Source of the DNA: Candidatus Crickella merdequi
Lineage (GTDB): Bacteria > Bacillota > Clostridia > Peptostreptococcales > Anaerovoracaceae
Assembly: GCA_018064645.1 (NCBI GenBank)
Contig: JAGHUT010000045.1
Span: 1-64,000, forward strand
DNA length: 64,000 bases
Direction of reading: 5' to 3'
The position numbers and the translations under genes are program-made. This document shows positions 705 through 24,831 of the stretch, one piece after another. Positions within the stretch are counted from its first letter, which is position 1. Every line of letters starts with the position of its first letter. The notes under the pieces were generated by a model. The model saw only the letters and a program-made list of their open reading frames with translations, was not told the DNA's origin and ran no database searches.

Positions 705-2369
705 TTATGGCAGGAGGATTGCTCCCTTATCTGCCGATGACACCATCTTTGCATATCTTGCAAGATAGCCTGTCTTGATTCTTGGCTCAGGACATACCCA
801 TGCGGCTCTTCTCTTCTCGAGCTCCTCATCTGAAACATTGAGTACAATGCTGCACTCCGGAATGTTGATTGAGATGATATCTCCCTCCTGTACAAGAGCG
901 ATGTTACCGCCTGATGCTGCCTCCGGACTTACGTGTCCGATTGAAGCGCCTCTTGTAGCACCTGAGAAACGTCCGTCTGTGATAAGAGCAACGCTCTCGC
1001 CAAGACCCATACCTGCGATTGCAGATGTTGGATTGAGCATCTCTCTCATTCCAGGACCGCCCTTAGGACCCTCGTAACGAATTACTACTACATCGCCAGG
1101 ATTGATTTTCTTAGCATAGATTGCCTCAATAGCATCATCCTCGCAGTCGAATACTCTTGCAGGACCTTCGTGCTCCATCATCTCAGGAGCAACTGCAGCT
1201 GCCTTTACAACACATCCGTCTGGAGCAAGGTTACCCTTGAGAACTGCAATTCCGCCTGTTGCCATGAACGGATTATCAATAGGTCTGATAATCTCTTCAT
1301 CTGTGTTCTCTACACCTTCAAGATTCTCTGCTACTGTCTTGCCTGTTGCTGTAATCAGGTCGGTGTGGAGGAGATCCTTCTTTGTGAGCTCCTTCATTAC
1401 TGCATATACTCCACCAGCCAGATCAAGATCCTCCATATAAGTCGATCCTGCAGGAGCAAGATGGCAAAGGTTAGGTGTTCTTCTGCTGATTTCGTTTGAC
1501 TTGTCGAGATCAATCTCTACTCCAGCCTCGTGTGCAATTGCAGGAAGGTGAAGCATTGTATTTGTTGAGCAGCCAAGCGCCATATCTACAGTCTCAGCGT
1601 TGTCAAAAGCCTTCGCTGTCATAATATCTCTTGGCTTGATATCTTTCTCAACAAGCTCCATAATCTTCATTCCTGTGTGCTTAGCAAGTCTTAATCTTGC
1701 TGAATATACTGCAGGAATAGTTCCGTTGCCAGGAAGTGACATTCCGATTGCCTCTGTAAGGCAGTTCATTGAGTTAGCTGTGTACATTCCAGAGCAGCTT
1801 CCACATGTAGGACATGCATTTTCTGTCATCTCTGCTACGCCGGCTTCATCAAGTGTTCCAGCCTTGTACGCACCTACAGCCTCAAACATGTGGCTGAGGC
1901 ATGTTCTCTTTCCATCCTTCAGCTTACCTGCGAGCATTGGTCCGCCTGATACAAAAATTGAAGGAATGTTCAGTCTTGCTGCTGCCATCAGAAGTCCAGG
2001 TACGTTCTTGTCGCAGTTAGGAATCATTACAAGTCCGTCGAACTGGTGAGCTGCTACCATTGACTCTGTTGAATCGGCAATAAGGACTATAGTTACAAGA
2101 GATTACTTCATTCCTGTATGGCCCATTGCGATACCATCACATACTGCGATAGCAGGGAACATAATAGGAGTACCGCCTGCCGCGCGAACGCCGGCTTTTA
2201 CGGCCTCAGCAATCTTGTCGATATTCATGTGGCCTGGAACGATCTCATTATATGAGCTTACGATTCCGATAAGAGGGCGCTCGATTTCCTCATCTGTGTA
2301 ACCGAGAGCGTAAAGAAGACTCTTGTTAGGAGTTCTTTCTACGCCTTTTTTGATTGCATCTGAACGCAT
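705..2369 (-). pseudogene. ilvD: Dihydroxy-acid dehydratase, interrupted by an in-frame TAA (2103-2105)
   Basis: ORF 2103..2369 ([24 protein letters not shown]...[12 protein letters not shown]) and ORF 705..2060 ([22 protein letters not shown]...) are N- and C-terminal parts of one IlvD. They lie in the same frame, separated by the stop and 14 codons ([14 protein letters not shown]). Confidence 0.85.
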
Positions 2370-2396
2370 TTATAATTCTCCTTATAACTTCTAAAG

Positions 2397-2424
2397 GGAT
2401 TCCGGCCGAAAACGGCCGAAATCC
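2397..2424. other. Intercistronic hairpin between ilvC and ilvD
   Basis: GGATTcCGGCCG-AAAA-CGGCCGaAATCC, an 11-bp stem with one mismatch and no U-tract. Confidence 0.6.
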
Positions 2425-2459
2425 TCTGTTCTAACAAGTATTAACTAAGTCCGTGGGAA

Positions 2460-3488
2460 TTAGTTTGAAGCGCTGTCGAGACCCTCGTCTCCGCCCTGTG
2501 TATCCTTCCAGAGCATGTTGTTTCTGAGCTCTGCTCCAACAACCTCCATCTGGTGCTTAGCAAGGTTGTTTCTCTTTGAGTTGAAGAATGTTCTTCCATT
2601 CTTGTTCTCAGCAATCCATCTGCCGGCAAAAGTTCCGTCCTGAATGTCTGCAAGAACCTTTCTCATGTTAGCCTTAACCTCGTCATGTGGAAGTACTCTT
2701 GGTCCTGATACGTACTCACCGAACTCAGCTGTATCTGAAATTGAGTAGTTCATAGCTGCAACTCCACCCTTGTTGATGAGGTCGATGATGAGCTTCATCT
2801 CGTGAATGCACTCGAAGTATGCGTTCTCTGGCTGATATCCAGCCTCTACGAGAACCTCGAAACCGCACTGCATGAGGTCTACAACTCCACCACAGAGAAC
2901 TGTCTGCTCTCCGAAGAGGTCTGTCTCTGTCTCCTCGTACATTGTTGTCTCCATTACTCCAGCTCTATCTCCACCGATTCCAGCGATGTAAGCAAGTGCG
3001 ATATCCATGCACTTTCCTGTTGCATCCTGCTCGCATGCTACGAGGCAAGGAACACCTTTTCCAGCAACATACTGCGATCTTACAGTGTGTCCAGGTCCCT
3101 TAGGCGCTGCCATGAATACGTCGATGTTTGCAGCAGGCTGAATCTGCTGATATCTGATATTAAATCCGTGAGCAAATGCAAGTGCAGCGCCATCCTTGAG
3201 GTTAGCTGCTACTGACTCCTTGTAGATGTCAGCTGCTCTCTCGTCGTTAACGAGCATCATTACGATGTCGGCCTTTGCTGTAGCCTCAGCAACTGTATAA
3301 ACCTCAAAACCGTCCTTTGTAGCCTTGTCCCAGCTCTTTCCTGGACGAAGTCCCATAATAACGTTGCATCCTGAATCTCTCAGGTTCATTGCGTGTGCGT
3401 GACCCTGTGATCCGTAACCGATAATTGCGATAGTCTTTCCGTTAAGTACGTTAAGATCACAGTCCTTCTCATAATACATTTTTGCCAT
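2460..3488 (-). CDS. ilvC: Ketol-acid reductoisomerase
   Basis: [40 protein letters not shown]; start moved inward to the ATG at 3488, which has a good SD. Confidence 0.95.
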
Positions 3489-4020
3489 AGTCGAATTCTC
3501 CCTTCTCCTTTGTGTCCTCGTCAATTGTACTTGTTCCTCTCTCGAGGGCCACAATACCCGTTCTAACTAATTCCATAATATTTAAATGCTCAAGCAGATT
3601 CTCGAAAGCATGATTCTTCTCATTGTCTCCAATAATCGCCAGAGTTATTGACTCAGTTGATACATCGATTACAGATGCTCTGAAGATGTTTGCAATCTGC
3701 ATAACTTCGTTTCTCTCGATGCTGTCAGCTGTTGCAATCTTTATGAGCAGAAGCTCTCTCTTTATTGCACTTTCACTTGAAAGCAGCTTTACAGAATGAA
3801 CCGGCAGCAGTTTTCTGAGCTGGTTGCATGTGAGCTCTGCTTTTTCCTGTGTGGTCAGAAGCTCAATTGTCATTCTTGAAATTGCTGGATTATGAGTGGT
3901 TCCTACTGCAAGGGACTCAATGTTGTATCCTTTTCTCGAAAACATTCTCGATACCTGTGACAGTACTCCTGCCTCGTTATCTACAAGGACAGATATTGTG
4001 TGGATAGTTTCTCTATTCAT
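3469..4020 (-). CDS. ilvN: Acetolactate synthase small (regulatory) subunit
   Basis: ACT-domain start [40 protein letters not shown]; overlaps the ilvC start by 20 nt. Confidence 0.93.
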
Positions 4021-4031
4021 ATCTTTCCTCC

Positions 4032-5735
4032 TTAGTCTACGATAAAGTTAGTAATAGCTCTTCCGCCTGGTACCATTGGACGAACCAGTTCGTCAATGTC
4101 GATTGGACACTCGATTACAGCACTCTTGCCACTTTCGAGAGCTGCCTGAAGAGCTGCCTCGAGTTCAATCTTAGTTGTGCATCTCATTCCCATGATTCCA
4201 AAAGCCTCAGCCAGCTTAACAAAATCAGGACCTCTATCCATGTATGTCTGTGAGTATCTGTGATCATACATAAGAGTCTGCCACTGTCTTACCATTCCAA
4301 GAGCTGAGTTGTTGAAAAGTACTGTGATTACAGGAATGTCGTACTTCTGCTCTGTGCAGAGCTCTGCGAAGTTCATTCTGAAACTTCCGTCTCCAGTGAT
4401 ATGACATACGCACTGGTCAGGATTACCAACCTTCGCACCGATAGCAGCTCCAAGACCGAAGCCCATAGCACCGAATCCGCCTGATGTGATCAGCTGACCC
4501 GGATAGGTGAAATGGAGGTGCTGAATTGCCCACATCTGATGCTGTCCTACATCAGTTGCTACGATTGTCTTCTCTGGCAGAATCTTTGCGATTGCCTCTG
4601 TAATCTGCTTAGGTGTCAGTGTATCTCCACCTGACTCGTACTCCTGCTCCTTAGGGAACTGGAATACATACTCTTTCCAAGGTGTGTGATCCTGCTGCTT
4701 AAGCTTCTTGTTGGCAATCTCAAGAACTCTTTTGGCATCGCCTACGATGTGATGGTCTGTCTTAACATTCTTGTCAATCTCAGAACGGTCAATGTCAATG
4801 TGGACAATCTTTGCATTTCTTGCAAAATGCTTTACATCAAGAGTTACTCTTTCGTTGAATCTGCAGCCTACAGAAATCAGAAGGTCGCAAGCATCGATTC
4901 CTCTGTTGGAAGCCTGTGAACCGTGCATTCCTATCATATTTGTTGAGAGTGGATTTGATCCGTCAAAGCCGCCGGCACCCATGATTGTAATTGCTACAGG
5001 TGCGTCTGCCTTTTCTACAAACTCGAGGAACTCAGCCTGTGCTCTACCTCTTACAACTCCGCCTCCGCAGATTACCATTGGCTTCTCTGATGCTTCAATC
5101 ATCTCGATGAGCTTGTCGATATCGCCTTCTGGCTCATGTGGCTTGAGGTTATGTGTTGGTCTGTTCTTAAGAGTTGCAAGCTTTCCTGACTCATAGTGCT
5201 TGTCGAGATCTACTTTCTCATACTCAGCTTCCTGGCCGCTGATGTTAGTCAGAATATCAATAACAACAGGACCTGGGCGACCTGATCTAGCCATTGCAAA
5301 AGCCGCTCTTACTGTGCTTGCAATCTCGTTAACATCCTTAACGAGGTAGTTGCACTTTGTGATAGGCATTGTGATACCGACTGTATCGCACTCCTGGAAT
5401 GAATCCTTTCCAATGAACGCCTCGCCTACGTTACATGTGATGAATACAACAGGAGATGAATCCATAAATGCTGTCGCAATTCCTGTTGTCAGGTTAGTTG
5501 CTCCCGGACCTGATGTAGCAATACAAACTCCAACCTTACCGGTGCTTCTTGCATATCCGTCAGCAGCATGTGATGCGCCTTGCTCGTGAGCTGTAAGAAT
5601 GTGCTTGATCTTATCTCCATACTTGTAGATAGAATCATACAGATTGATTACAGTTCCACCTGGATAGCCGAAGATTGTATCAACGCCCTGCTCCAGAAGA
5701 CATTCCATTAAGATGTCTGATCCTTTGAGTTTCAT
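4032..5735 (-). CDS. ilvB: Acetolactate synthase large subunit
   Basis: MKLKGSDILMECLLEQGVDTIFGYPGGT...; TPP-enzyme motifs. ATG at 5735 preferred over the upstream TTG because of the SD. Confidence 0.95.
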   Translation of the reverse strand: MKLKGSDILMECLLEQGVDTIFGYPGGTVINLYDSIYKYGDKIKHILTAHEQGASHAADGYARSTGKVGVCIATSGPGATNLTTGIATAFMDSSPVVFITCNVGEAFIGKDSFQECDTVGITMPITKCNYLVKDVNEIASTVRAAFAMARSGRPGPVVIDILTNISGQEAEYEKVDLDKHYESGKLATLKNRPTHNLKPHEPEGDIDKLIEMIEASEKPMVICGGGVVRGRAQAEFLEFVEKADAPVAITIMGAGGFDGSNPLSTNMIGMHGSQASNRGIDACDLLISVGCRFNERVTLDVKHFARNAKIVHIDIDRSEIDKNVKTDHHIVGDAKRVLEIANKKLKQQDHTPWKEYVFQFPKEQEYESGGDTLTPKQITEAIAKILPEKTIVATDVGQHQMWAIQHLHFTYPGQLITSGGFGAMGFGLGAAIGAKVGNPDQCVCHITGDGSFRMNFAELCTEQKYDIPVITVLFNNSALGMVRQWQTLMYDHRYSQTYMDRGPDFVKLAEAFGIMGMRCTTKIELEAALQAALESGKSAVIECPIDIDELVRPMVPGGRAITNFIVD

Positions 5736-5771
5736 ATCTTCACCTTTCTCCAAAATATAATTAACTAAAGT

Positions 5772-6842
5772 CTATAAATAACTGATAATAGTGTCTGTCA
5801 TCTCAGTGCAGCTGAGTGCTCCCTCTGCACCGCCGGCAATATCAGCAGTTCTGTATCCTGCATCAAGAACCTTGTTGACAGCCTCTTCAATAGCATCAGC
5901 CTCCTCTGTAAGATCGAAGGAGTATCTCAGCATCATTGCTGCTGAAAGTATTGTTGCGATTGGGTTAGCTTTGCCTGTTCCTGCGATGTCAGGTGCTGAG
6001 CCGTGGATTGGCTCATACAGACCTCTCTTGGTATTACCGAGAGATGCTGATGCAAGCATTCCGATTGAACCGGTAATCTGAGATGCCTCATCTGAGAGAA
6101 TATCTCCGAACATGTTGCTTGTTACCACTACATCGAACTGACCCGGATTTCTGACAAGCTGCATTGCTGCGTTGTCTACCAGCATGTCCTTGCATGTGAC
6201 CTCTGGATACTGCTCGCCGATTCTGTGAACGACTTCTCTCCAGAGTCTTGATGTCTCAAGTACATTTGCCTTGTCAACACTGATGAGATTCTTGCCTCTC
6301 TTCATTGCTGTCTGGTAAGCGACATGTGCGATTCTCTCAATCTCCATGACGCTGTATGCCTCGGTGTCGTAAGCCTCTTTGCCGTATTTGCCTTCACGGT
6401 AGCCTCTTTCACCGAAGTAGATGCCTCCTGTCAGCTCTCTGAGAATCATAATGTCAGAACCTTTTGCAACGATGTCAGCTCTGGGCGGGCTGTCATCCTT
6501 AAGCCCTCCGTAGAGCTTTGCAGGTCTTAAGTTAGTGAAAAGTTCCAGCGCCTGTCTCAGTCTCAGAAGTCCCTTCTCTGGTCTTGCATCTCCGCTGAGG
6601 CCATCCCACTTAGGTCCGCCTACTGCTCCGAAAAGCACGCTGTCGCTTGCGAGACATCCCTTAACTGACTCTTCAGGAAGTGGATCTCCGCAGGCATCGA
6701 TAGCTGCACCACCTGCAAGGTACTCATTGAATTCAAAACTGTGTCCGTACTTCTCTCCGATAACTTCAAGAACTCTTACAGCACTGTCTACGATCTCCGG
6801 ACCGATACCATCACCTTTAACTAATGCAATCTTATAATTCAT
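5772..6842 (-). CDS. leuB: 3-isopropylmalate dehydrogenase
   Basis: MNYKIALVKGDGIGPEIVDSAVRVLE...ETSRLWREVV...DNAAMQLVRNPGQFDVVVTSNMFGDILSDEASQI. Confidence 0.95.
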   Translation of the reverse strand: MNYKIALVKGDGIGPEIVDSAVRVLEVIGEKYGHSFEFNEYLAGGAAIDACGDPLPEESVKGCLASDSVLFGAVGGPKWDGLSGDARPEKGLLRLRQALELFTNLRPAKLYGGLKDDSPPRADIVAKGSDIMILRELTGGIYFGERGYREGKYGKEAYDTEAYSVMEIERIAHVAYQTAMKRGKNLISVDKANVLETSRLWREVVHRIGEQYPEVTCKDMLVDNAAMQLVRNPGQFDVVVTSNMFGDILSDEASQITGSIGMLASASLGNTKRGLYEPIHGSAPDIAGTGKANPIATILSAAMMLRYSFDLTEEADAIEEAVNKVLDAGYRTADIAGGAEGALSCTEMTDTIISYL

Positions 6843-6847
6843 ATGCC

Positions 6848-7330
6848 CTATGCCTTCTTTCTGTAGTTAATCAGTCCGCCAGCTTCGATAATTGCCTGAA
6901 TGAATGGAGGGAATGCTGCTGCCTGGAAGCTCTCGCCAGTTGTCTCATCCTTGATAACTCCTGTCTCGAAGTCCACGCTTACAGTATCTCCGTTAGCAAT
7001 TGCCTCTGCTGCCTCTGGGCATTCAAGAATCGGAAAACCAATATTGATTGCATTTCTGTAGAAAATTCTTGCGAAGCTTGCTGCAATTACACATGATACT
7101 CCGCAAGCCTTGATTGACACAGGTGCATGCTCTCTTGATGAGCCGCATCCGAAGTTCCATCCGCCAACCATAATGTCACCTGTATGATCAACCTTTGGGA
7201 ACTCTGGATCGATGTCCTCCATGCAGTGTCTTGCCATATTCTCAAGAGATGGATCATTGAGATATCTTGCAGGGATGATTACGTCAGTGTTAACGTCATC
7301 ACCGAATTTGTAAACTTTACCTTTTACCAT
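6848..7330 (-). CDS. leuD: 3-isopropylmalate dehydratase small subunit
   Basis: [25 protein letters not shown]...[11 protein letters not shown]; internal ATG at 7330 chosen. Confidence 0.93.
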
Positions 7331-7340
7331 GATGACCTCC

Positions 7341-8603
7341 TTACATAATATCTTCCGGACCTGCCACGTAACCTGCAACAGCAGAAGCTGCAGCTACAGC
7401 AGGACTTGCAAGAATGATTTCACTCTCTACGTGACCCATTCTACCTACAAAATTTCTGTTTGTTGTTGAGATTGTTCTTTCTCCTTCGCACATTACTCCC
7501 ATGTGGCCACCCATACATGGGCCGCAGCTTGGAGTATTAACTGCGCATCCGGCCTCGATGAAAATCTTCATTATGCCTTCCTCGATGCACTGGAGATAGA
7601 TATCCTGAGTTGCAGGAACGATATTGACTCTGATGCCCTTTGCAACTTTTCTGTCCTTGAAAATCTCTGCTGCGATTCTCATATCCTCCATACGGCCGTT
7701 AGTGCAGGAACCGATTACGACTGAGTCGATGTGAGTTCCCTTGACCTCATCAACAGTTCTTGTGTTTGATGGGAGATGTGGAAGTGATACTGTATTCTTC
7801 AGCTCACTGAGGTTAATCTCAACGACTCTTTCGTACTCAGCATCCTCATCAGCTTCGTAAACATTGTATGGTCTGTCGACTCTGCCCTTGATGTACTCAA
7901 GAGTTTTCTCGTCTACAGGGAAAATTCCGTTCTTTCCGCCGGCCTCAATAGCCATGTTGGAAATTGTGAATCTGTCATCCATGCTCAGCTCTGCAACACC
8001 AGGGCCTGCAAACTCGATTGATTTGTAAAGAGCCCCGTCTACACCGATCTCTCCAATGAGGTGAAGGATTACATCTTTACCTGTTACCCACTTTGAAGGC
8101 TTGCCTGTCAGCATTACCTTGATTGCTGAAGGAACCTTGAACCAGCTCTGGCCTGATGCCCAGCTTGCTGCAAGATCTGTTGAGCCAACGCCTGTTGAGA
8201 AAGCTCCAAGAGCTCCGTATGTACATGTGTGTGAATCGGCTCCAATGATAATCTCGCCTGGAGCAGCAAGACCTTTTTCAGGTACAAGCGCATGCTCGAT
8301 TCCTACAACGCCTGTGTCATAGAAATGTGTGAGATCCTGCTTCTTTGCAAACTCTCTTGCCTTCTTTGAGAGTCTTGCTGAATCAATATCCTTGCAAGGT
8401 GTGTAGTGATCGAGGATGATTGCTACCTTATCCTTGTCGAAAACCTTGTCAAAGCCTGCCTGCTCGAAAATGTCTGCAGATACAGGTGATGTAATGTCAT
8501 TACTCATGCACAGATCGAGTCTTGCTTCTACAAGCTCGCCTGCCTTAACGCTTTCCACTCCCACGTGTGCCGCAAGAATCTTCTGCGTCATAGTCATGCC
8601 CAT
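7341..8603 (-). CDS. leuC: 3-isopropylmalate dehydratase large subunit
   Basis: [26 protein letters not shown]...[17 protein letters not shown]...[10 protein letters not shown]. Confidence 0.94.
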
Positions 8604-8630: not shown

Positions 8631-10163
8631 TTAGTTAGCAGCTTCTTCTCTCTGCTTAATCAGCTTGTTAACTGACTGAATGTATGCAACGATTGATGAC
8701 TCGATAACGTCTGTAGAAAGACCGTGACCTGTGTAAGTCTTGTTCTCGTTAGTCAGCTTGATTGTTGCGTCTCCGATTGTATCCTTGCCCTCTGAAATTG
8801 AGAAGATTGAGAAGTCTGCAAATGTATGCTCTCCTGGCTTAGCAATCTTGTTGATAGCTCCGAATGCTGCATCAAGAGGGCCATCTCCGAGGCATACTGC
8901 TTCGTAATTCTTACCGTTCTTCTCAAGGTTGATTGTGCATGTAGCTGTTGTGAAGTTGCTTGTGTTAACAGAGAACCAGTTGAGCTTGTAGCCACCCTCT
9001 TCATCCTTGATCACACTGTGGTTAACGATAGCCTCAAGATCGCTGTCGTTTACTGTCTTCTTCTTGTCGCAGATTACCTTGAACTCCTCGAAGCAAGCCA
9101 GCAGCTCTTCCTTGGACAGCTCGTATCCAAGCTCCTTGAGACGAGTCTCAAAGGCATGCTTTCCTGAATGCTTACCAAGTACCAGATTATTGGCTGTGAT
9201 ACCAACTGACTCTGGAGTCATAATCTCATATGTTGCCTTGTTAGCAAGTACTCCATGCTGGTGAATTCCAGCCTCGTGAGCAAATGCGTTCTTGCCGACA
9301 ATCGGCTTGTTAAGAGGTGCTGACTGTCCGATGATGTTATATACAGTCTTAGAAGCCTTGCTGATCTGTGTTGTGTCGATTCTTGGCTGTGATGCAAAGA
9401 TGTCCGGACGAGTGCGCATTGCCATTACTACTTCCTCAAGTGAAGTGTTGCCGGCTCTCTCTCCAAGACCATTGATTGTACACTCAATCTGTCTAGCTCC
9501 TCCAAGTACTCCTCCAAGAGAGTTAGCTGTAGCCATACCCAGGTCATTGTGGCAGTGTACAGAGAAAATTACATCCTCTGGATTGTCGATATGACTCTGA
9601 ACGTATGAAATGAGGTTTCTCATCTCGTCTGGAGTTGTATATCCAACTGTGTCTGGGAGGTTGATTGTTGTGGCACCGTTAGCAACTACTGCATTAACAA
9701 CCTTTACCATGAAATCGTAATCACTTCTTGTAGCATCCTCACAGGAGAACTCAATATTTGAGCAGAGGCTTCTTGCATACTTTACAGCAGCTGCTGCATT
9801 CTCAATAACCTGATCTTCTGTCATCTTGAGCTTATATTCCATGTGAAGTGGTGATGTTGCCAGGAAGACGTGGATTCTTGGATCTACTGCACCCTTAACA
9901 GCATTGTATGCTGCATCAATGTCCTTCTGTACTGATCTTGAAAGTGAAGCAACTGTACAATCCTTAACTGTCTCAGCAACTGTCTTTACTGACTCGAAAT
10001 CTCCAGGAGAGGAAATAGCAAAACCAGCCTCGATGATATCAACCTTAAGTCGTTCTAGACACTTTGCTACCTCAATCTTCTCCTTGAGGTTCATGCTGCA
10101 GCCAGGGGCCTGCTCGCCATCGCGAAGTGTTGTGTCGAAAATCTTAATGTCGTTAATCATCAC
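8631..10163 (-). CDS. leuA: 2-isopropylmalate synthase
   Basis: IKIFDTTLRDGEQAPGCSMN...HCHNDLGMATANSLGGVLGGARQIECTINGLGERAGN. Confidence 0.95.
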   Translation of the reverse strand: MMINDIKIFDTTLRDGEQAPGCSMNLKEKIEVAKCLERLKVDIIEAGFAISSPGDFESVKTVAETVKDCTVASLSRSVQKDIDAAYNAVKGAVDPRIHVFLATSPLHMEYKLKMTEDQVIENAAAAVKYARSLCSNIEFSCEDATRSDYDFMVKVVNAVVANGATTINLPDTVGYTTPDEMRNLISYVQSHIDNPEDVIFSVHCHNDLGMATANSLGGVLGGARQIECTINGLGERAGNTSLEEVVMAMRTRPDIFASQPRIDTTQISKASKTVYNIIGQSAPLNKPIVGKNAFAHEAGIHQHGVLANKATYEIMTPESVGITANNLVLGKHSGKHAFETRLKELGYELSKEELLACFEEFKVICDKKKTVNDSDLEAIVNHSVIKDEEGGYKLNWFSVNTSNFTTATCTINLEKNGKNYEAVCLGDGPLDAAFGAINKIAKPGEHTFADFSIFSISEGKDTIGDATIKLTNENKTYTGHGLSTDVIESSIVAYIQSVNKLIKQREEAAN

Positions 10164-10213
10164 TGTTATCTCCTTTGTCTTAAAAAATTTAAAAATAGTC
10201 TATAAAATATTAA

Positions 10214-10248
10214 AAGCCGAATGACCTGCGTTAAAAGTCATCCGGCTT
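10214..10248 (-). terminator. Attenuator terminator hairpin upstream of leuA
   Basis: Minus strand AAGCCGgATGACttttaacgcagGTCATtCGGCTT followed by TTAATATTTTATA. Confidence 0.85.
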
Positions 10249-10289
10249 ATAATCTGATTTAAATCCGCGCGTAAAGCGCGTAACAGTTA

Positions 10290-10397
10290 CTAGCAGTTTG
10301 TGGCATGACTTTTAACGCTGTTTCCATCGACTAGAAGTAGTCCAAGAACAGCGCTAATAATAAGAATGCTAATCACTACTGCGAAAGTTGCCTGCAT
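10290..10397 (-). CDS. Branched-chain amino acid-rich leader peptide, 35 aa
   Basis: Minus-strand ATG at 10397: MQATFAVVISILIISAVLGLLLVDGNSVKSHATNC*; SD AGGAAA upstream; dense run of Val/Ile/Leu codons. Confidence 0.8.
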   Translation of the reverse strand: MQATFAVVISILIISAVLGLLLVDGNSVKSHATNC

Positions 10398-10430
10398 GTA
10401 ACTGTTTCCTTTCTTGTATTCATTAGGAAT

Positions 10431-10459
10431 ATTTTACTCTCAACAGTATGCAAAGTCAA
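10431..10459 (-). promoter_or_regulatory. Sigma-70-type promoter of the leu leader
   Basis: Minus strand TTGACT (10459-10454), 17-nt spacer, TAAAAT (10436-10431). Confidence 0.75.
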
Positions 10460-10501: not shown

Positions 10502-11488
10502 TTATTTTTGAGACTCTTTACTGAGAATGTTTCTTTTGTTAGCTTCTATCAGGTCGTTGTAGGTCCACACATCCATTTCAACGAATTCGTTCCACATCAC
10601 ATCCTTCTCTATTGCGGCCGCAACACCGGCAACAAACTGCTTTATCATCGGATTCTGTCTGTTTGATTCAAGAACAATATAGCCCAGCTCACGCATTACA
10701 TTGTCTTCCATCCTGACGACTTTTGGAAAGAACTTGGAACCGATTCGCGTCATTCCACTGTCTATAAGCATGCTTGCCGGCATTATTGTCGACCCCATGC
10801 CAAGAGCAATGCTTTTGACAATCAGTGTATTGCTGATTTTATCAGGGTAATATACAGGGGTAACATTCCTGCTCCTGAGATATGTTATGGAATTCCTGTC
10901 CTCGCCGTAATCTGCCACGAAGAACTCCCTGTTATGGAACGCCTCAAAGGGACAAGGTGCTGTAATATTCTCTTTGCTGTATAACACTCCGTAATACGGA
11001 TCCTTTGTAAGCTCTCCCCAGTAGAAATCTCTTGAAGCCCACGCATGCTCTGTAAAACCCAGGTCAATTACGCCTTCCTCAAGCCATCTGTTTATTTCGA
11101 AAGGATTGCCTTTGACAATATCGAAATGGAAGCCTGTGTAGTTATCCATCATGTAGTGCATGGCATCGGCAAACCATCTTGTCGCAATAGTATCAATGGC
11201 GCCGATGTGAAGCGTAAGGCTCGTATTGTTCTTTCGACCTGCAATTGCAAAGCGAAAGCTGTCAGCTGCGTGAACCGCCCTGCAAACCTCCGGATACAGT
11301 GCAATTCCATCCTCACTTAGTCTTATGCCATTATAATTTCTTTCAACAAGTTGAAGTTCAAGTTCCTCTTCCAGGCTCTTTATGACATAAGATACGCCTG
11401 CCTGCGTATAGCCGAGAACCTCTGCAGCCCTTGAAAAACTGCCTGTTTCAGCTACTTTAAGAAACACCCTGAGTTTATCTGAATCCAT
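10502..11488 (-). CDS. LysR family transcriptional regulator
   Basis: MDSDKLRVFLKVAETGSFSRAAEVLGYTQAGVSYVIKSLEEELELQLVERN. Confidence 0.92.
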   Translation of the reverse strand: MDSDKLRVFLKVAETGSFSRAAEVLGYTQAGVSYVIKSLEEELELQLVERNYNGIRLSEDGIALYPEVCRAVHAADSFRFAIAGRKNNTSLTLHIGAIDTIATRWFADAMHYMMDNYTGFHFDIVKGNPFEINRWLEEGVIDLGFTEHAWASRDFYWGELTKDPYYGVLYSKENITAPCPFEAFHNREFFVADYGEDRNSITYLRSRNVTPVYYPDKISNTLIVKSIALGMGSTIMPASMLIDSGMTRIGSKFFPKVVRMEDNVMRELGYIVLESNRQNPMIKQFVAGVAAAIEKDVMWNEFVEMDVWTYNDLIEANKRNILSKESQK

Positions 11489-20283: not shown

Positions 20284-21450
20284 TTAAAGATTATTCACGA
20301 CTTCTGCTGCGAACTCTGCACAGGTACCGCCATCGGCAAGTCCTGTCATTCTTGCGCCCAGCTTTGCATCCGCCGCCGCAACAGCAGCCTCCAGCTTGTC
20401 CGCCTCTGCAGAATAACCGATATGTCTGAGAAGCATTACTGCCGCAGTCATCAGACTTGCCGGATTAGCTCTGTCTGCGATTCCCTCTTCTACCATTCTT
20501 GGCGCACTACCATGAATTGCTTCAAAAATCGCATAGTCGCTTCCGATGTTAGCGCTTCCAGCAGTTCCTACACCACCCTGAATCTGAGCAGCCTCATCTG
20601 TGATGATGTCGCCATACAGATTAGGCAGAACAAAAACCTGGAATCCTGATCTGATATCTGTGTTGACCAGGTTGGCCGCCATTATGTCAACGAACCAGGT
20701 GTCAGCCTTGATCTCCGGATACTCCTTTGCAACATCGAGGCAGATTCCCTGAAAATCTCCGTCTGTTTTCTTCATGATATTGGCTTTTGTAACAATGGAT
20801 ACTCTGTCTTTGCCGTTGGCTCTTGCGAAATCAAAGGCCGCCTTCGCGATGCGCTTGCTTCCCTCTGCAGTCGTTACCTTGAAATCCATTGAGAAACTGT
20901 CGCCGACTCTGATGCCCTTGCTACCGAGTGCGTACTCACCCTCTGTATTCTCGCGGAAAAAAGTCCAGTCTATTCCCTCCGCTGGAAGGCATACAGGGCG
21001 AACATTAGCGTAGAGGTCGAAGTGTTTTCTGAGAAAAACATTCGCGCTCTCCAGATTCTTTCCACCCATTGCTGCGTTAGGTGTTGTTGTAGGTCCCTTG
21101 AGGAGAACATTGCAGCTCTCCATCTCTGCAAGAACCTCTGCAGGAACAGTCTCGCCCTTATCAAGCCTGTTCTCAATAGTGAAACCTTCGATGTCCTTGA
21201 GAGCGATTTTGCCCGACCCGATTGCATCAGCGAGAAGCGTCTTTAGCACTGCCCTGGTTTCATCCATAATGATTGGACCGATACCGTCTCCAGGCGCAAG
21301 ACCGATTGTGATACAGTCAGCATCGCCGGAAACAATCTCGCTTCTCTCTGCAATTCTCTTATTTCTTTCGTACTGCTCAATGAGCATCGCCTCGAAGGCC
21401 TCCTTGGCAGCTTCGATATCTTTGATAATTTCCTGTGGATAGTCTTTCAT
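20284..21450 (-). CDS. Isocitrate/isopropylmalate dehydrogenase family, probable isocitrate dehydrogenase
   Basis: GLAPGDGIGPIIMDETRAVL...FRENTEGEYALGSKG...NLYGDIITDEAAQIQGG; located beside aconitase and (Re)-citrate synthase. Confidence 0.85.
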   Translation of the reverse strand: MKDYPQEIIKDIEAAKEAFEAMLIEQYERNKRIAERSEIVSGDADCITIGLAPGDGIGPIIMDETRAVLKTLLADAIGSGKIALKDIEGFTIENRLDKGETVPAEVLAEMESCNVLLKGPTTTPNAAMGGKNLESANVFLRKHFDLYANVRPVCLPAEGIDWTFFRENTEGEYALGSKGIRVGDSFSMDFKVTTAEGSKRIAKAAFDFARANGKDRVSIVTKANIMKKTDGDFQGICLDVAKEYPEIKADTWFVDIMAANLVNTDIRSGFQVFVLPNLYGDIITDEAAQIQGGVGTAGSANIGSDYAIFEAIHGSAPRMVEEGIADRANPASLMTAAVMLLRHIGYSAEADKLEAAVAAADAKLGARMTGLADGGTCAEFAAEVVNNL

Positions 21451-21497
21451 TGTAATACCCCTGGTTAGTTTTTTGTGATGACAAAGCTCACGACAAT

Positions 21498-23417
21498 TTA
21501 TTGAGCCGCTGTGTATTTGAGGAGGCCTCCGGCAAGCAGCATAGCCTTCTGTCTCTCTGCAAGCTCCATCCTAAGCGAAATCTCTTCTCCGTCCACCATC
21601 AGAATCACCTTATCTTCCTTAAGTCCGGAGTGAACATTCTTCATCTCAACCTTGCTTCCCTGCTGGATCTTCTCATAATCATCTGGATTCTCGAAGATGA
21701 GCGGAAGAATTCCCGCATTGACAAGGTTCGCTGCGTGAATTCTTGCGAAACTCTTTGCAACTACAGCTCTGATTCCAAGATAGAGAGGTGCAAGAGCTGC
21801 ATGCTCTCTTGATGAACCCTGACCGTAATTTGAGCCACCTACGATAATTCCACTGCCTGCAGCCTTTGCGCGCGCTGAGAAAGTTGGATCTACAACCTCA
21901 AAGCAGAACTCTGATATTTTTGGCACATTGGAGCGGTAAGGAAGAACCTTGGCTCCGGCAGGCATGATATGGTCTGTTGTGATATTGTCCTCAACCTTGA
22001 GAATAACCTCTGCTGAAATATTGTCCTCAAGTGGATGTGTCTCTGGGAAAGGCTTGATATTTGGTCCCTTAAGAACCTCTGCCTCCGCTGCCTCATCTCC
22101 CTCGAGAGGTGCAATGATTCCGCTGTCATTGATTCTGAATGATTCAGGCATTGCATACGGCTCAACGTCCTCAAGAACCATTGGGTCTGTGATATATCCT
22201 GTGAGTGCTGCTGCAACTGCTGTCTCAGGGCTTACAAGATATACCTGTCCATCTTTAGTTCCAGATCTTCCAAGGAAGTTCCTGTTAAAAGTCCTGAGGG
22301 ACACTCCTGCCGAGTTAGGTGAGAAACCCATTCCTATACATGGTCCGCAGGCACACTCAAGAACTCTTGCTCCTGCATCAATCATGTCAGTCAGCGCACC
22401 GCACTCTGCCAGCATTGAGAAAACCTGTCTTGAACCAGGCGAGATTGAAAGGCTTACAGAGTCATCGATTTTGCGACCCTTAAGCATTGCTGCTACAGTG
22501 AGCATGTCTGAAAGTGACGAATTTGTGCATGATCCGATGCAGACCTGGTCAACCTTGATTTCCTCAAGGTCTGCAACCTTCTTGATATTGTCAGGGCTGT
22601 GAGGGCAGGCTGCCAGCGGCACAAGCTCCGACAGATTGATATCTATTTCCTGTGCATATTCAGCATCAGCATCGCTGGAAAGCTCTGTCCAGTCTTCCTC
22701 TCTTCCTTCAGCCTTGAGGAATGCTTTTGTCATCTCATCTGAAGGGAAAATCGATGATGTTGCTCCAAGCTCCGCTCCCATATTCGTAATTGTACATCTT
22801 TGAGGAACTGTGAGAGTCTTAACTCCCGGACCGGCGTACTCCACGATGGCACCAACGCCTCCTTTTACCGAAAGAATGCGAAGAACCTCGAGAATGATGT
22901 CCTTTGCACTTACATTAGGTCTAAGCTCCCCTGTCAGATTAACCCTGATCATCCTTGGCATTGGGATATAGTATGCGCCGCCACCCATAGCAACAGCAAC
23001 ATCCATTCCACCGGCACCGATTGCAAGCATTCCGATACCGCCGCCTGTTGGAGTATGTGAATCCGAACCAATGAGAGTCTTGCCCGGTTTGCCGAATCTC
23101 TCGTAATGAACCTGGTGACAGATTCCATTGCCCGGTCTTGAGAAATACACACCATGCTTAGCGCATACACTCTGAATGTATCTGTGATCGTCTGCATTCT
23201 CGAATCCTGACTGCAGCGTGTTGTGGTCAATATATGCAACAGACTTCTCCGTCTTGACACGTGGAATACCCATAGATTCGAACTCCAGATATGCCATTGT
23301 TCCTGTTGCATCCTGAGTAAGAGTCTGGTCAATGCGAATGCCAATCTCTTCTCCAGTAATCATCTCACCGCTTACCAGGTGAGCCGAAATGATTTTCTCT
23401 GCTATTGTCTTGCCCAT
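21498..23417 (-). CDS. acn: Aconitate hydratase
   Basis: MGKTIAEKIISAHLVSGEM...GSCTNSSLSDM...CGPCIGMGFSPNSAGVSLRTFNRNFLGRSGTKDGQVYLVSPETAVAAALTG. Confidence 0.9.
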   Translation of the reverse strand: MGKTIAEKIISAHLVSGEMITGEEIGIRIDQTLTQDATGTMAYLEFESMGIPRVKTEKSVAYIDHNTLQSGFENADDHRYIQSVCAKHGVYFSRPGNGICHQVHYERFGKPGKTLIGSDSHTPTGGGIGMLAIGAGGMDVAVAMGGGAYYIPMPRMIRVNLTGELRPNVSAKDIILEVLRILSVKGGVGAIVEYAGPGVKTLTVPQRCTITNMGAELGATSSIFPSDEMTKAFLKAEGREEDWTELSSDADAEYAQEIDINLSELVPLAACPHSPDNIKKVADLEEIKVDQVCIGSCTNSSLSDMLTVAAMLKGRKIDDSVSLSISPGSRQVFSMLAECGALTDMIDAGARVLECACGPCIGMGFSPNSAGVSLRTFNRNFLGRSGTKDGQVYLVSPETAVAAALTGYITDPMVLEDVEPYAMPESFRINDSGIIAPLEGDEAAEAEVLKGPNIKPFPETHPLEDNISAEVILKVEDNITTDHIMPAGAKVLPYRSNVPKISEFCFEVVDPTFSARAKAAGSGIIVGGSNYGQGSSREHAALAPLYLGIRAVVAKSFARIHAANLVNAGILPLIFENPDDYEKIQQGSKVEMKNVHSGLKEDKVILMVDGEEISLRMELAERQKAMLLAGGLLKYTAAQ

Positions 23418-23442
23418 ATCTTTTCCTCTTCCAATCTGTTTT

Positions 23443-24831
23443 CTACCATGTGCCCTTAAGGTACTCATCTGATGTAATGAACTCATCGACCTTCTGTCTT
23501 ATCTCAGAACCGCCAATGGCCGAAACTCTGCCCTTTGCGTATTCCTCATCGATCCAGCGCTTAACAAAGATAACAACCTCGCTTTTCTTATCAACAACAC
23601 GGTCTCCTTCAAGGCCATAGTTGTCATTGATCCATTTAGCTACGCCGGCGAAGCCCGAGCTCTGATTGATCGTAACTGTAGGTGGTCTCTTTAAGAATTT
23701 CTTTGTATCGAAAATATTATAGATTTCCTCGTTCTTAAGGAGTCCATCCGCATGGATTCCAGCCTTTGTTACGTTGAAATTCTCGCCAACGAAAGGTGTC
23801 TGCTCAGGAAGCTTATATCCAATCACTCTCTCATAGTATCTTGCAAGATCGGTGATAACCGTTGTATCCATTCCATCAAGAGTTCCCTTGAGCTGTGCAT
23901 ATTCGAAAACCATAGCCTCAAGAGGAACATTTCCTGTTCTCTCTCCAATTCCAAAAAGTGTTGTGCTTACTGCGGAGCATCCATAGAGCCATGCTGTTGC
24001 TGCATTTGTTACTGCTTTATAGAAATCATTGTGTCCGTGCCACTCGAGCATCTCGCTTGGAACGTCTGCATACTGCTGCAGTCCGTAAATGATTCCCGGA
24101 ACTGATCTTGGAAGCGCTACTCCGTTATATGGAATGCCGTATCCGAGAGTATCGCATGCTCTGATCTTGGCTGGAATACCGGCCTGCTGCGACAGATCCT
24201 GAATTGCTTTTACGAAAGGTACTACAAAGCCGTAGAAATCTGCTCTTGTAATATCCTCGAGATGACAGCGAGGCATAACCCCTGCTTCGAAGGCGTCACT
24301 TATTACTGAGAGATAATGGTCCATAGCCTGCTTTCTTGTCATGCCCAGCTTGTTGAAAATATGATAATCTGAGCAGCTTACGAGAATTCCTGTCTCCTTG
24401 ACGCCGATATCATGAACAAGCTTGAAGTCTTCCTTCTTGGCACGAATCCATGTAGTAATTTCAGGAAACTCCAGGCCAAGGTCCTGGCATCTCTTGATAG
24501 CCTCTCTGTCCTTATCGCTATATACAAAGAACTCTGTCTGCCTGATGATTCCATTTGGGCCGGAAAGCTTTGACATCATCTTATATATATCTACAATCTG
24601 CCTAACTGTATAAGGCTCTCGTGACTGCTGACCATCACGGAAGGTTGTATCTGTTATCCAGATGTTCTCAGGCATTCCGTAAGGGCTGTTACGGAAGTTA
24701 AAATGGACCTTAGGTACTTCTGTGTATTCGAAGACCTCTCTGAAGAGATTAGGATTCTCGACATCCTGAATTTCGTATGTATATGCTTCTGTCTCCAGAA
24801 GATTTGATTTGCTTTTGATGTGATTTGTCAT
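23443..24831 (-). CDS. Probable (Re)-citrate synthase (homocitrate/isopropylmalate synthase fold)
   Basis: ITDTTFRDGQQSREPYTVRQIVDIYKMM...GPNGIIRQTEFFVYSDKDREAI...EWHGHNDFYKAVTNA; resembles the clostridial Re-citrate synthase group; clustered with acn and idh. Confidence 0.8.
   Translation of the reverse strand: MTNHIKSKSNLLETEAYTYEIQDVENPNLFREVFEYTEVPKVHFNFRNSPYGMPENIWITDTTFRDGQQSREPYTVRQIVDIYKMMSKLSGPNGIIRQTEFFVYSDKDREAIKRCQDLGLEFPEITTWIRAKKEDFKLVHDIGVKETGILVSCSDYHIFNKLGMTRKQAMDHYLSVISDAFEAGVMPRCHLEDITRADFYGFVVPFVKAIQDLSQQAGIPAKIRACDTLGYGIPYNGVALPRSVPGIIYGLQQYADVPSEMLEWHGHNDFYKAVTNAATAWLYGCSAVSTTLFGIGERTGNVPLEAMVFEYAQLKGTLDGMDTTVITDLARYYERVIGYKLPEQTPFVGENFNVTKAGIHADGLLKNEEIYNIFDTKKFLKRPPTVTINQSSGFAGVAKWINDNYGLEGDRVVDKKSEVVIFVKRWIDEEYAKGRVSAIGGSEIRQKVDEFITSDEYLKGTW

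Follow-up and report, generated by a model that had tools for sequence, protein, structure and literature searches.

The minus strand of the window (the whole stretch of 64,000 nucleotides that was analysed) contains, between a LysR gene (10502-11488) and leuA, a leader element that is very probably a ribosome-mediated transcription attenuator of the classical 1:2 / 2:3 / 3:4 type. It would control leuACDB-ilvBNCD, which from the gene layout are presumed to be read as one operon. In this gut bacterium the RNA appears to read the supply of branched-chain amino acids (BCAA) through a ribosome on a Val/Ile/Leu-rich peptide. The same element also lies ahead of a 2-oxoacid:ferredoxin oxidoreductase operon in this genome, which was outside the view of the original prediction for this DNA. 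Two of the usual branched-chain sensors of Firmicutes, T-boxes and CodY, are for the most part or entirely absent from this lineage of the class Clostridia, and a peptide-leader attenuator would take their place. The copy of the leader on a second operon has an altered codon mix, from which the product of that operon can be predicted in a form open to test.

Leader layout and proposed mechanism

Promoter, ribosome-binding site, 35-codon ORF with its Val/Ile/Leu run, pause hairpin and intrinsic terminator follow each other in this order from 10459 to 10205 on the minus strand (Table 1); a small CG-rich hairpin is placed between the leader ORF and the terminator. The promoter, the 35-codon BCAA-rich ORF, and the terminator hairpin with U-tract ahead of leuA had all been predicted and were recovered at the stated places; the Shine-Dalgarno motif and the 1:2 pause hairpin are additions to that list. 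The run occupies codons 7-23 of the ORF, which has 14 Ile, Leu or Val codons in total. Similar promoters are visible by eye ahead of the leaders of relatives, e.g. TTGACA-17-TATAAT in sister species G032. Further downstream, ilvD contains an in-frame TAA at 2103-2105 (minus strand), and the residues right after it are unlike those of relatives; either the gene is broken or an error arose in sequencing or assembly.

Table 1. Parts of the leader and genes behind it, with positions in the window
Feature	Position	Strand	Basis
Sigma-70-type promoter TTGACT-17-TAAAAT	10431..10459	-	10/12 consensus bases
Shine-Dalgarno-like AAAGGA	10407..10412	-	Sequence; 9 nt 5' of leader ATG
Leader ORF MQATFAVVISILIISAVLGLLLVDGNSVKSHATNC, 35 codons, stop TAG	10290..10397	-	Sequence and homologous leaders in relatives
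Segment 1 TTAGCGCTGTT, 5' arm of 1:2 pause hairpin, within BCAA run	10347..10357	-	Minimum-energy fold
3' arm of 1:2 hairpin AACAGCGTTAA, overlaps segment 2	10312..10322	-	Minimum-energy fold and alignment of 7 leaders
Segment 2 GCGTTAAAAGTCAT, antiterminator 5' arm, ORF codons 27-31	10305..10318	-	14-nt complement, covariation
Segment 3 ATGACTTTTAACGC, antiterminator 3' arm = terminator 5' arm and loop	10228..10241	-	14-nt complement, covariation
Intrinsic terminator hairpin (3:4), 14 pairs	10214..10248	-	Stem and compensatory changes in 7 leaders
U-rich terminator tail TTTTAATATTTT	10205..10216	-	Sequence
leuA, 2-isopropylmalate synthase, first structural gene after the attenuator	8631..10163	-	NCBIfam TIGR00973, 670 bits vs cut-off 599
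Presumed remainder of operon: leuC, leuD, leuB, ilvB, ilvN, ilvC, ilvD	705..8603	-	ORFs and identity with operons of relatives

The perfect 14-nt complement between segments 2 and 3 had been predicted and is exact. None of 2000 dinucleotide shuffles reached this length (maximum 10, mean 5.6). The folding z-score of the 251-nt leader is -6.5, and its minimum-energy structure has both the 1:2 hairpin and the terminator. A generic descriptor, a BCAA-dense short ORF 5-85 nt upstream of a terminator, was applied to both strands of the window (128 kb of sequence) and gave two matches, one being this leader and the other apparently the last part of a longer protein-coding gene. The BCAA share of the leader peptide is 41% (binomial p = 0.009); since this enrichment in a single peptide is modest when taken alone, the case for an attenuator rests on conservation.

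In the proposed mechanism, a ribosome would translate the 35-codon peptide as RNA polymerase synthesises the leader. With plentiful charged tRNAs for Val, Ile and Leu the ribosome would reach the stop codon and cover segment 2, so that segment 3 would pair with segment 4 and transcription would end at the U-tract. If any of the three were scarce, the ribosome would stall at codons ~11-23, break the 1:2 hairpin and leave segment 2 free, so that 2:3 would pair before segment 4 is made and polymerase would read into leuA. In the absence of translation, the 1:2 hairpin would form and lead to the terminator. The switch would be a kinetic one, the terminator being the more stable fold once segment 4 exists. 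We infer translation of the ORF, stalling, read-through and the dominant amino acid among Val, Ile and Leu.

Folding under ribosome masking was in line with the predicted roles of a stalled ribosome, which frees segment 2, and of a ribosome at the stop, which masks it. Before segment 4 is present, P(2:3) is 0.07 without a ribosome, 0.85-1.0 with the A site at codons 11-23, at most 0.08 at codons 25-35, and 0.14 at the stop. In the full-length RNA at equilibrium the terminator is preferred nearly throughout, regardless of the ribosome position; the decision for antitermination must therefore be kinetic and co-transcriptional. This locus has a short ORF with a ribosome-binding site and a run of end-product codons, an intrinsic terminator between leader ORF and first structural gene, and a mutually exclusive antiterminator that uses the terminator 5' arm (from pairing, covariation and the cognate-partner test, see below). 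The ribosome geometry is given by constrained folding for this leader and for the second leader of the same genome, which behaves in the same way; the G032 leader is less clean.

Homologous leaders and alternative explanations

The comparison covered 47 species genomes of the source genus (Mogibacterium-like, Anaerovoracaceae). Homologous leaders were found ahead of leuA in three sister species (G005, G032, G035) and ahead of ilvB in nine members of the genus (G044, G010, G015, G040, G017, G036, G008, G030, G023), where the operon order is ilvB-ilvN-ilvC-ilvD-leuA. Covariance models, as suggested in the original prediction, connect these groups: the model R1 of the leuA/por type finds three ilvB leaders (E 4e-6 to 9e-4), and R2, built from ilvB leaders only, finds the por and leuA leaders (E 5e-8 to 2e-5). 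These reciprocal matches identify the two groups as homologous. About half of the genus genomes in which the region upstream of ilvB could be read are without a recognisable leader there. The two of these that were looked at in detail, L166 and L181 (G027, G009), have a second ilvB/ilvN-like pair directly upstream. A search (R3) of 398 other genomes of the phylum, run with strict filters, gave no convincing match, the only one with E <= 0.003 being partial; on these sequences the leader family looks narrow.

Four loci of more distant MAGs in which leuA is first in the operon (L053, L059, L061, L066) carry a BCAA-rich leader peptide and a terminator before leuA. L061 (4606-4956, Clostridiales MAG bin54) apparently has two BCAA-rich leader peptides in tandem before leuA, each with a terminator. 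The leader of L066 (2730-2890), from a diverged MAG with a LeuA 60% identical, reads MIVSFISVNVLLTAVALLVRESGDLRCLRTD, and its 2:3 pairing with the terminator amounts to -21.9 kcal/mol. A match on C48 of G035 was considered as a por leader and rejected, as it belongs to the leuA leader, which a contig end cuts in two. The leuA of G035 (L006) has an in-frame TAG; this genome is otherwise similar.

The helices were examined in a MAFFT alignment of seven leaders (A2). Helix 2:3 is paired in 90.5% of cases vs 33-42% when slid, with two pairs changed on both sides. Helix 3:4 is paired in 91.7%, with five compensated pairs and a covariation score reached by none of 500 shuffles. Helix 1:2 is paired in 88% of cells vs 36-51% in slid controls and has one compensatory pair (GC in the window leader, AU elsewhere); its covariation in these seven leaders is not above that of shuffles. 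The segment 2 of each leader was also paired with the terminator of every leader. Cognate 2:3 pairs have a mean of -19.9 kcal/mol, pairs across the two groups about -12, and the preference for the cognate partner is significant by permutation, with p = 5e-5 for all leaders together and 0.008 and 0.002 when each group is taken by itself. In G044 and G015, segments 2 and 3 pair weakly or do not exceed the shuffles. The original prediction, that an antiterminator can form, is borne out by this conserved and co-varying helix with preferred cognate partners, and both the leader ORF and the 14-nt pairing, on whose conservation in relatives it had been made to depend, are conserved.

The ORF might alternatively encode a functional small membrane peptide, with the hairpin acting merely as a terminator. 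The 35-residue product is hydrophobic with one such stretch and could form a transmembrane helix, in which richness in Val, Ile and Leu is expected. The leuA leader of G005 speaks against this: a +2 shift places the stop inside segment 2 (GCGTTATAAG) and the conserved end SVKSHATNC is lost, whereas the nucleotides of segment 2 are kept and still pair. That the RNA segment survives where the peptide end does not points to selection on the RNA rather than to a functional peptide. The hydrophobic residues are moreover mostly Ile, Leu and Val, with Ile but without Leu in the por leaders, and the pairing with the terminator co-varies. A membrane peptide is therefore considered very unlikely.

Control by a T-box or another ligand-sensing riboswitch, with an incidental short ORF, would fit the relatives, as T-boxes lie directly before leuA in other genera of the same family (G058, G053, G056, G052) and other families of the order also use a T-box ahead of leuA. 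The comparison with Rfam, likewise proposed beforehand, gave no leader family above the gathering threshold, including the Leu leader RF00512 and the other curated amino-acid leaders. Matches with E up to 10 are at chance level and include no T-box, and nothing in the window matches the T-box model RF00230. In addition, 17 leaders share the BCAA-dense ORF and the geometry of masking, which makes a riboswitch extremely improbable. Equally hard to credit is a hairpin that only terminates the LysR transcript, with ORF and pairing accidental: the LysR gene does end just upstream on the same strand, but the promoter sits between it and the ORF, other copies of the element have unrelated genes upstream (in the case of por, an elongation-factor-like gene), and helices 2:3 and 3:4 co-vary.

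Codon content and the leader of the por operon

The regulatory codons of the attenuator leaders follow the gene. Within the genus, leuA leaders contain 4-8 Ile, 5-6 Leu and 2-5 Val codons, ilvB leaders 6-8 Ile, 3-7 Leu and 0-2 Val, and por leaders 10-12 Ile, no Leu and 1-2 Val; that is, Ile, Leu and Val for leuA, Ile and Leu for ilvB, and Ile without Leu for por. The second homologous leader of the window's genome is located at G000:C42:32797-32953 on the minus strand (L002 1371-1551, L133). Its peptide, MFNTFAIIISIIIISAISCIICQPDSVKSCAVNCE, is rich in Ile and free of Leu. It is followed by a porGDAB-like operon with the gamma subunit, of the pyruvate/2-ketoisovalerate family (TIGR02175, 199 bits vs cut-off 81), and then ferredoxin-like delta, alpha and beta subunits. 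G005 has the same Ile leader and four-subunit arrangement on C22. The region upstream of por in G032 reads N, and G044 has a 175-bit PorC homologue with other neighbours. A PorC-like domain is also present elsewhere, inside an open frame of ~1190 aa (C58 of the window's genome; C23 of G005), which we infer to be a single-chain pyruvate:ferredoxin oxidoreductase. Because of this frame the four-subunit enzyme is probably not the sole pyruvate enzyme.

The Ile codons of this putative attenuator suggest that the 2-oxoacid:ferredoxin oxidoreductase serves isoleucine synthesis and would run towards biosynthesis. According to work cited in PMC7476758, anaerobes have an established source of isoleucine carbon in the ferredoxin-dependent carboxylation of propionyl-CoA to 2-oxobutyrate. 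In G005 (99% complete) no gene passes the cut-off for threonine deaminase of the ilvA_1Cterm family (TIGR01127), and citramalate synthase exceeded the cut-off in none of nine genomes; the window's own genome has an ilvA-type gene on C6. We regard as evenly balanced the reading that the por enzyme is anabolic and induced by Ile starvation, converting propionyl-CoA to 2-oxobutyrate or 2-methylbutyryl-CoA to the keto-acid precursor of isoleucine, and that in G005 it replaces the threonine deaminase and citramalate routes. Should this hold, the codons of a duplicated leader would tell which substrate an otherwise ambiguous enzyme uses, and in which direction. The por leader would then point to a ferredoxin-dependent isoleucine route in this lineage, which includes MAGs from ruminant guts.

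An IPMS-like paralogue in the window (23443-24831) was considered as citramalate synthase and rejected. It misses the CimA cut-off and adjoins genes for aconitase and isocitrate dehydrogenase, so that a Re-citrate synthase is likelier. The stretch 20284-24831 on the minus strand, with this paralogue followed by the aconitase and isocitrate dehydrogenase genes, is probably a Re-citrate synthase glutamate-branch operon.

Probable regulator replacement and known systems

T-boxes number 0-3 per genome in the source genus vs 7-26 in 24 genomes of the other families of the order; the window's genome has a single one, on another contig. CodY was detected in 0 of 36 genus genomes vs 21 of 24 genomes from the other families; the window's genome is 92% complete. 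With T-boxes rare, CodY undetected in the genus and no Rfam match, the suggestion of a lineage-specific leader class in place of T-box or CodY control has held up. In a LeuA tree, the LeuA of the genus groups with other Clostridia MAGs, apart from that of the other genera of the family. The simplest reading of this one gene tree is that the leu-ilv operon and its attenuator were acquired horizontally and that the T-box version was lost. Locus L054 is labelled Flexilinea (Chloroflexota), and in the tree the LeuA of its leu-ilv operon falls with this genus of Anaerovoracaceae; the record is likely misbinned or mislabelled.

The original prediction had noted that T-box or CodY control is more commonly described for leu/ilv operons in Firmicutes. 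Both are indeed common in the rest of the order, but peptide attenuators were already known in Bacilli (PMC5794164, PMC5864092), as they are in Proteobacteria and Actinobacteria (PMC5864092, PMC5794164, PMC1262725). The literature that was searched yielded no description of a BCAA peptide attenuator for this lineage, nor of one on a ferredoxin oxidoreductase.

Rli60 of Listeria monocytogenes (PMC5864092) also has a short peptide with BCAA codons, a terminator and an antiterminator upstream of an ilv-leu operon, and its attenuation was reported there from start-codon, RBS and terminator mutants. It differs, according to the same account, in its 13-aa peptide, its host in the class Bacilli and its control by CodY, which was undetected here; a second copy on a ferredoxin oxidoreductase, as here, was not found described for Rli60 in the available part of that source. 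The ilvD attenuator of Staphylococcus aureus (PMC5794164) replaces a T-box, with a 26-aa Ile/Leu-rich peptide and a terminator 52 nt past the stop, but the antiterminator proposed for it uses the poly-U tail as pairing partner, CodY takes part in its regulation and the gene order is another. Within Firmicutes, replacement of a T-box by a peptide leader was noted for the histidine leaders of hisS paralogs in bacilli (PMC2965389), which concern another amino acid, other genes and another lineage. The Proteobacterial leu/ilv leaders (RF00512 and others) share the 1:2 / 2:3 / 3:4 logic and the BCAA regulatory codons, whereas the leaders described here match no Rfam family and have segment 2 inside the ORF in the leuA and por types. 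The mechanism appears to be classical, the family of leader sequences previously undescribed and the target gene new.
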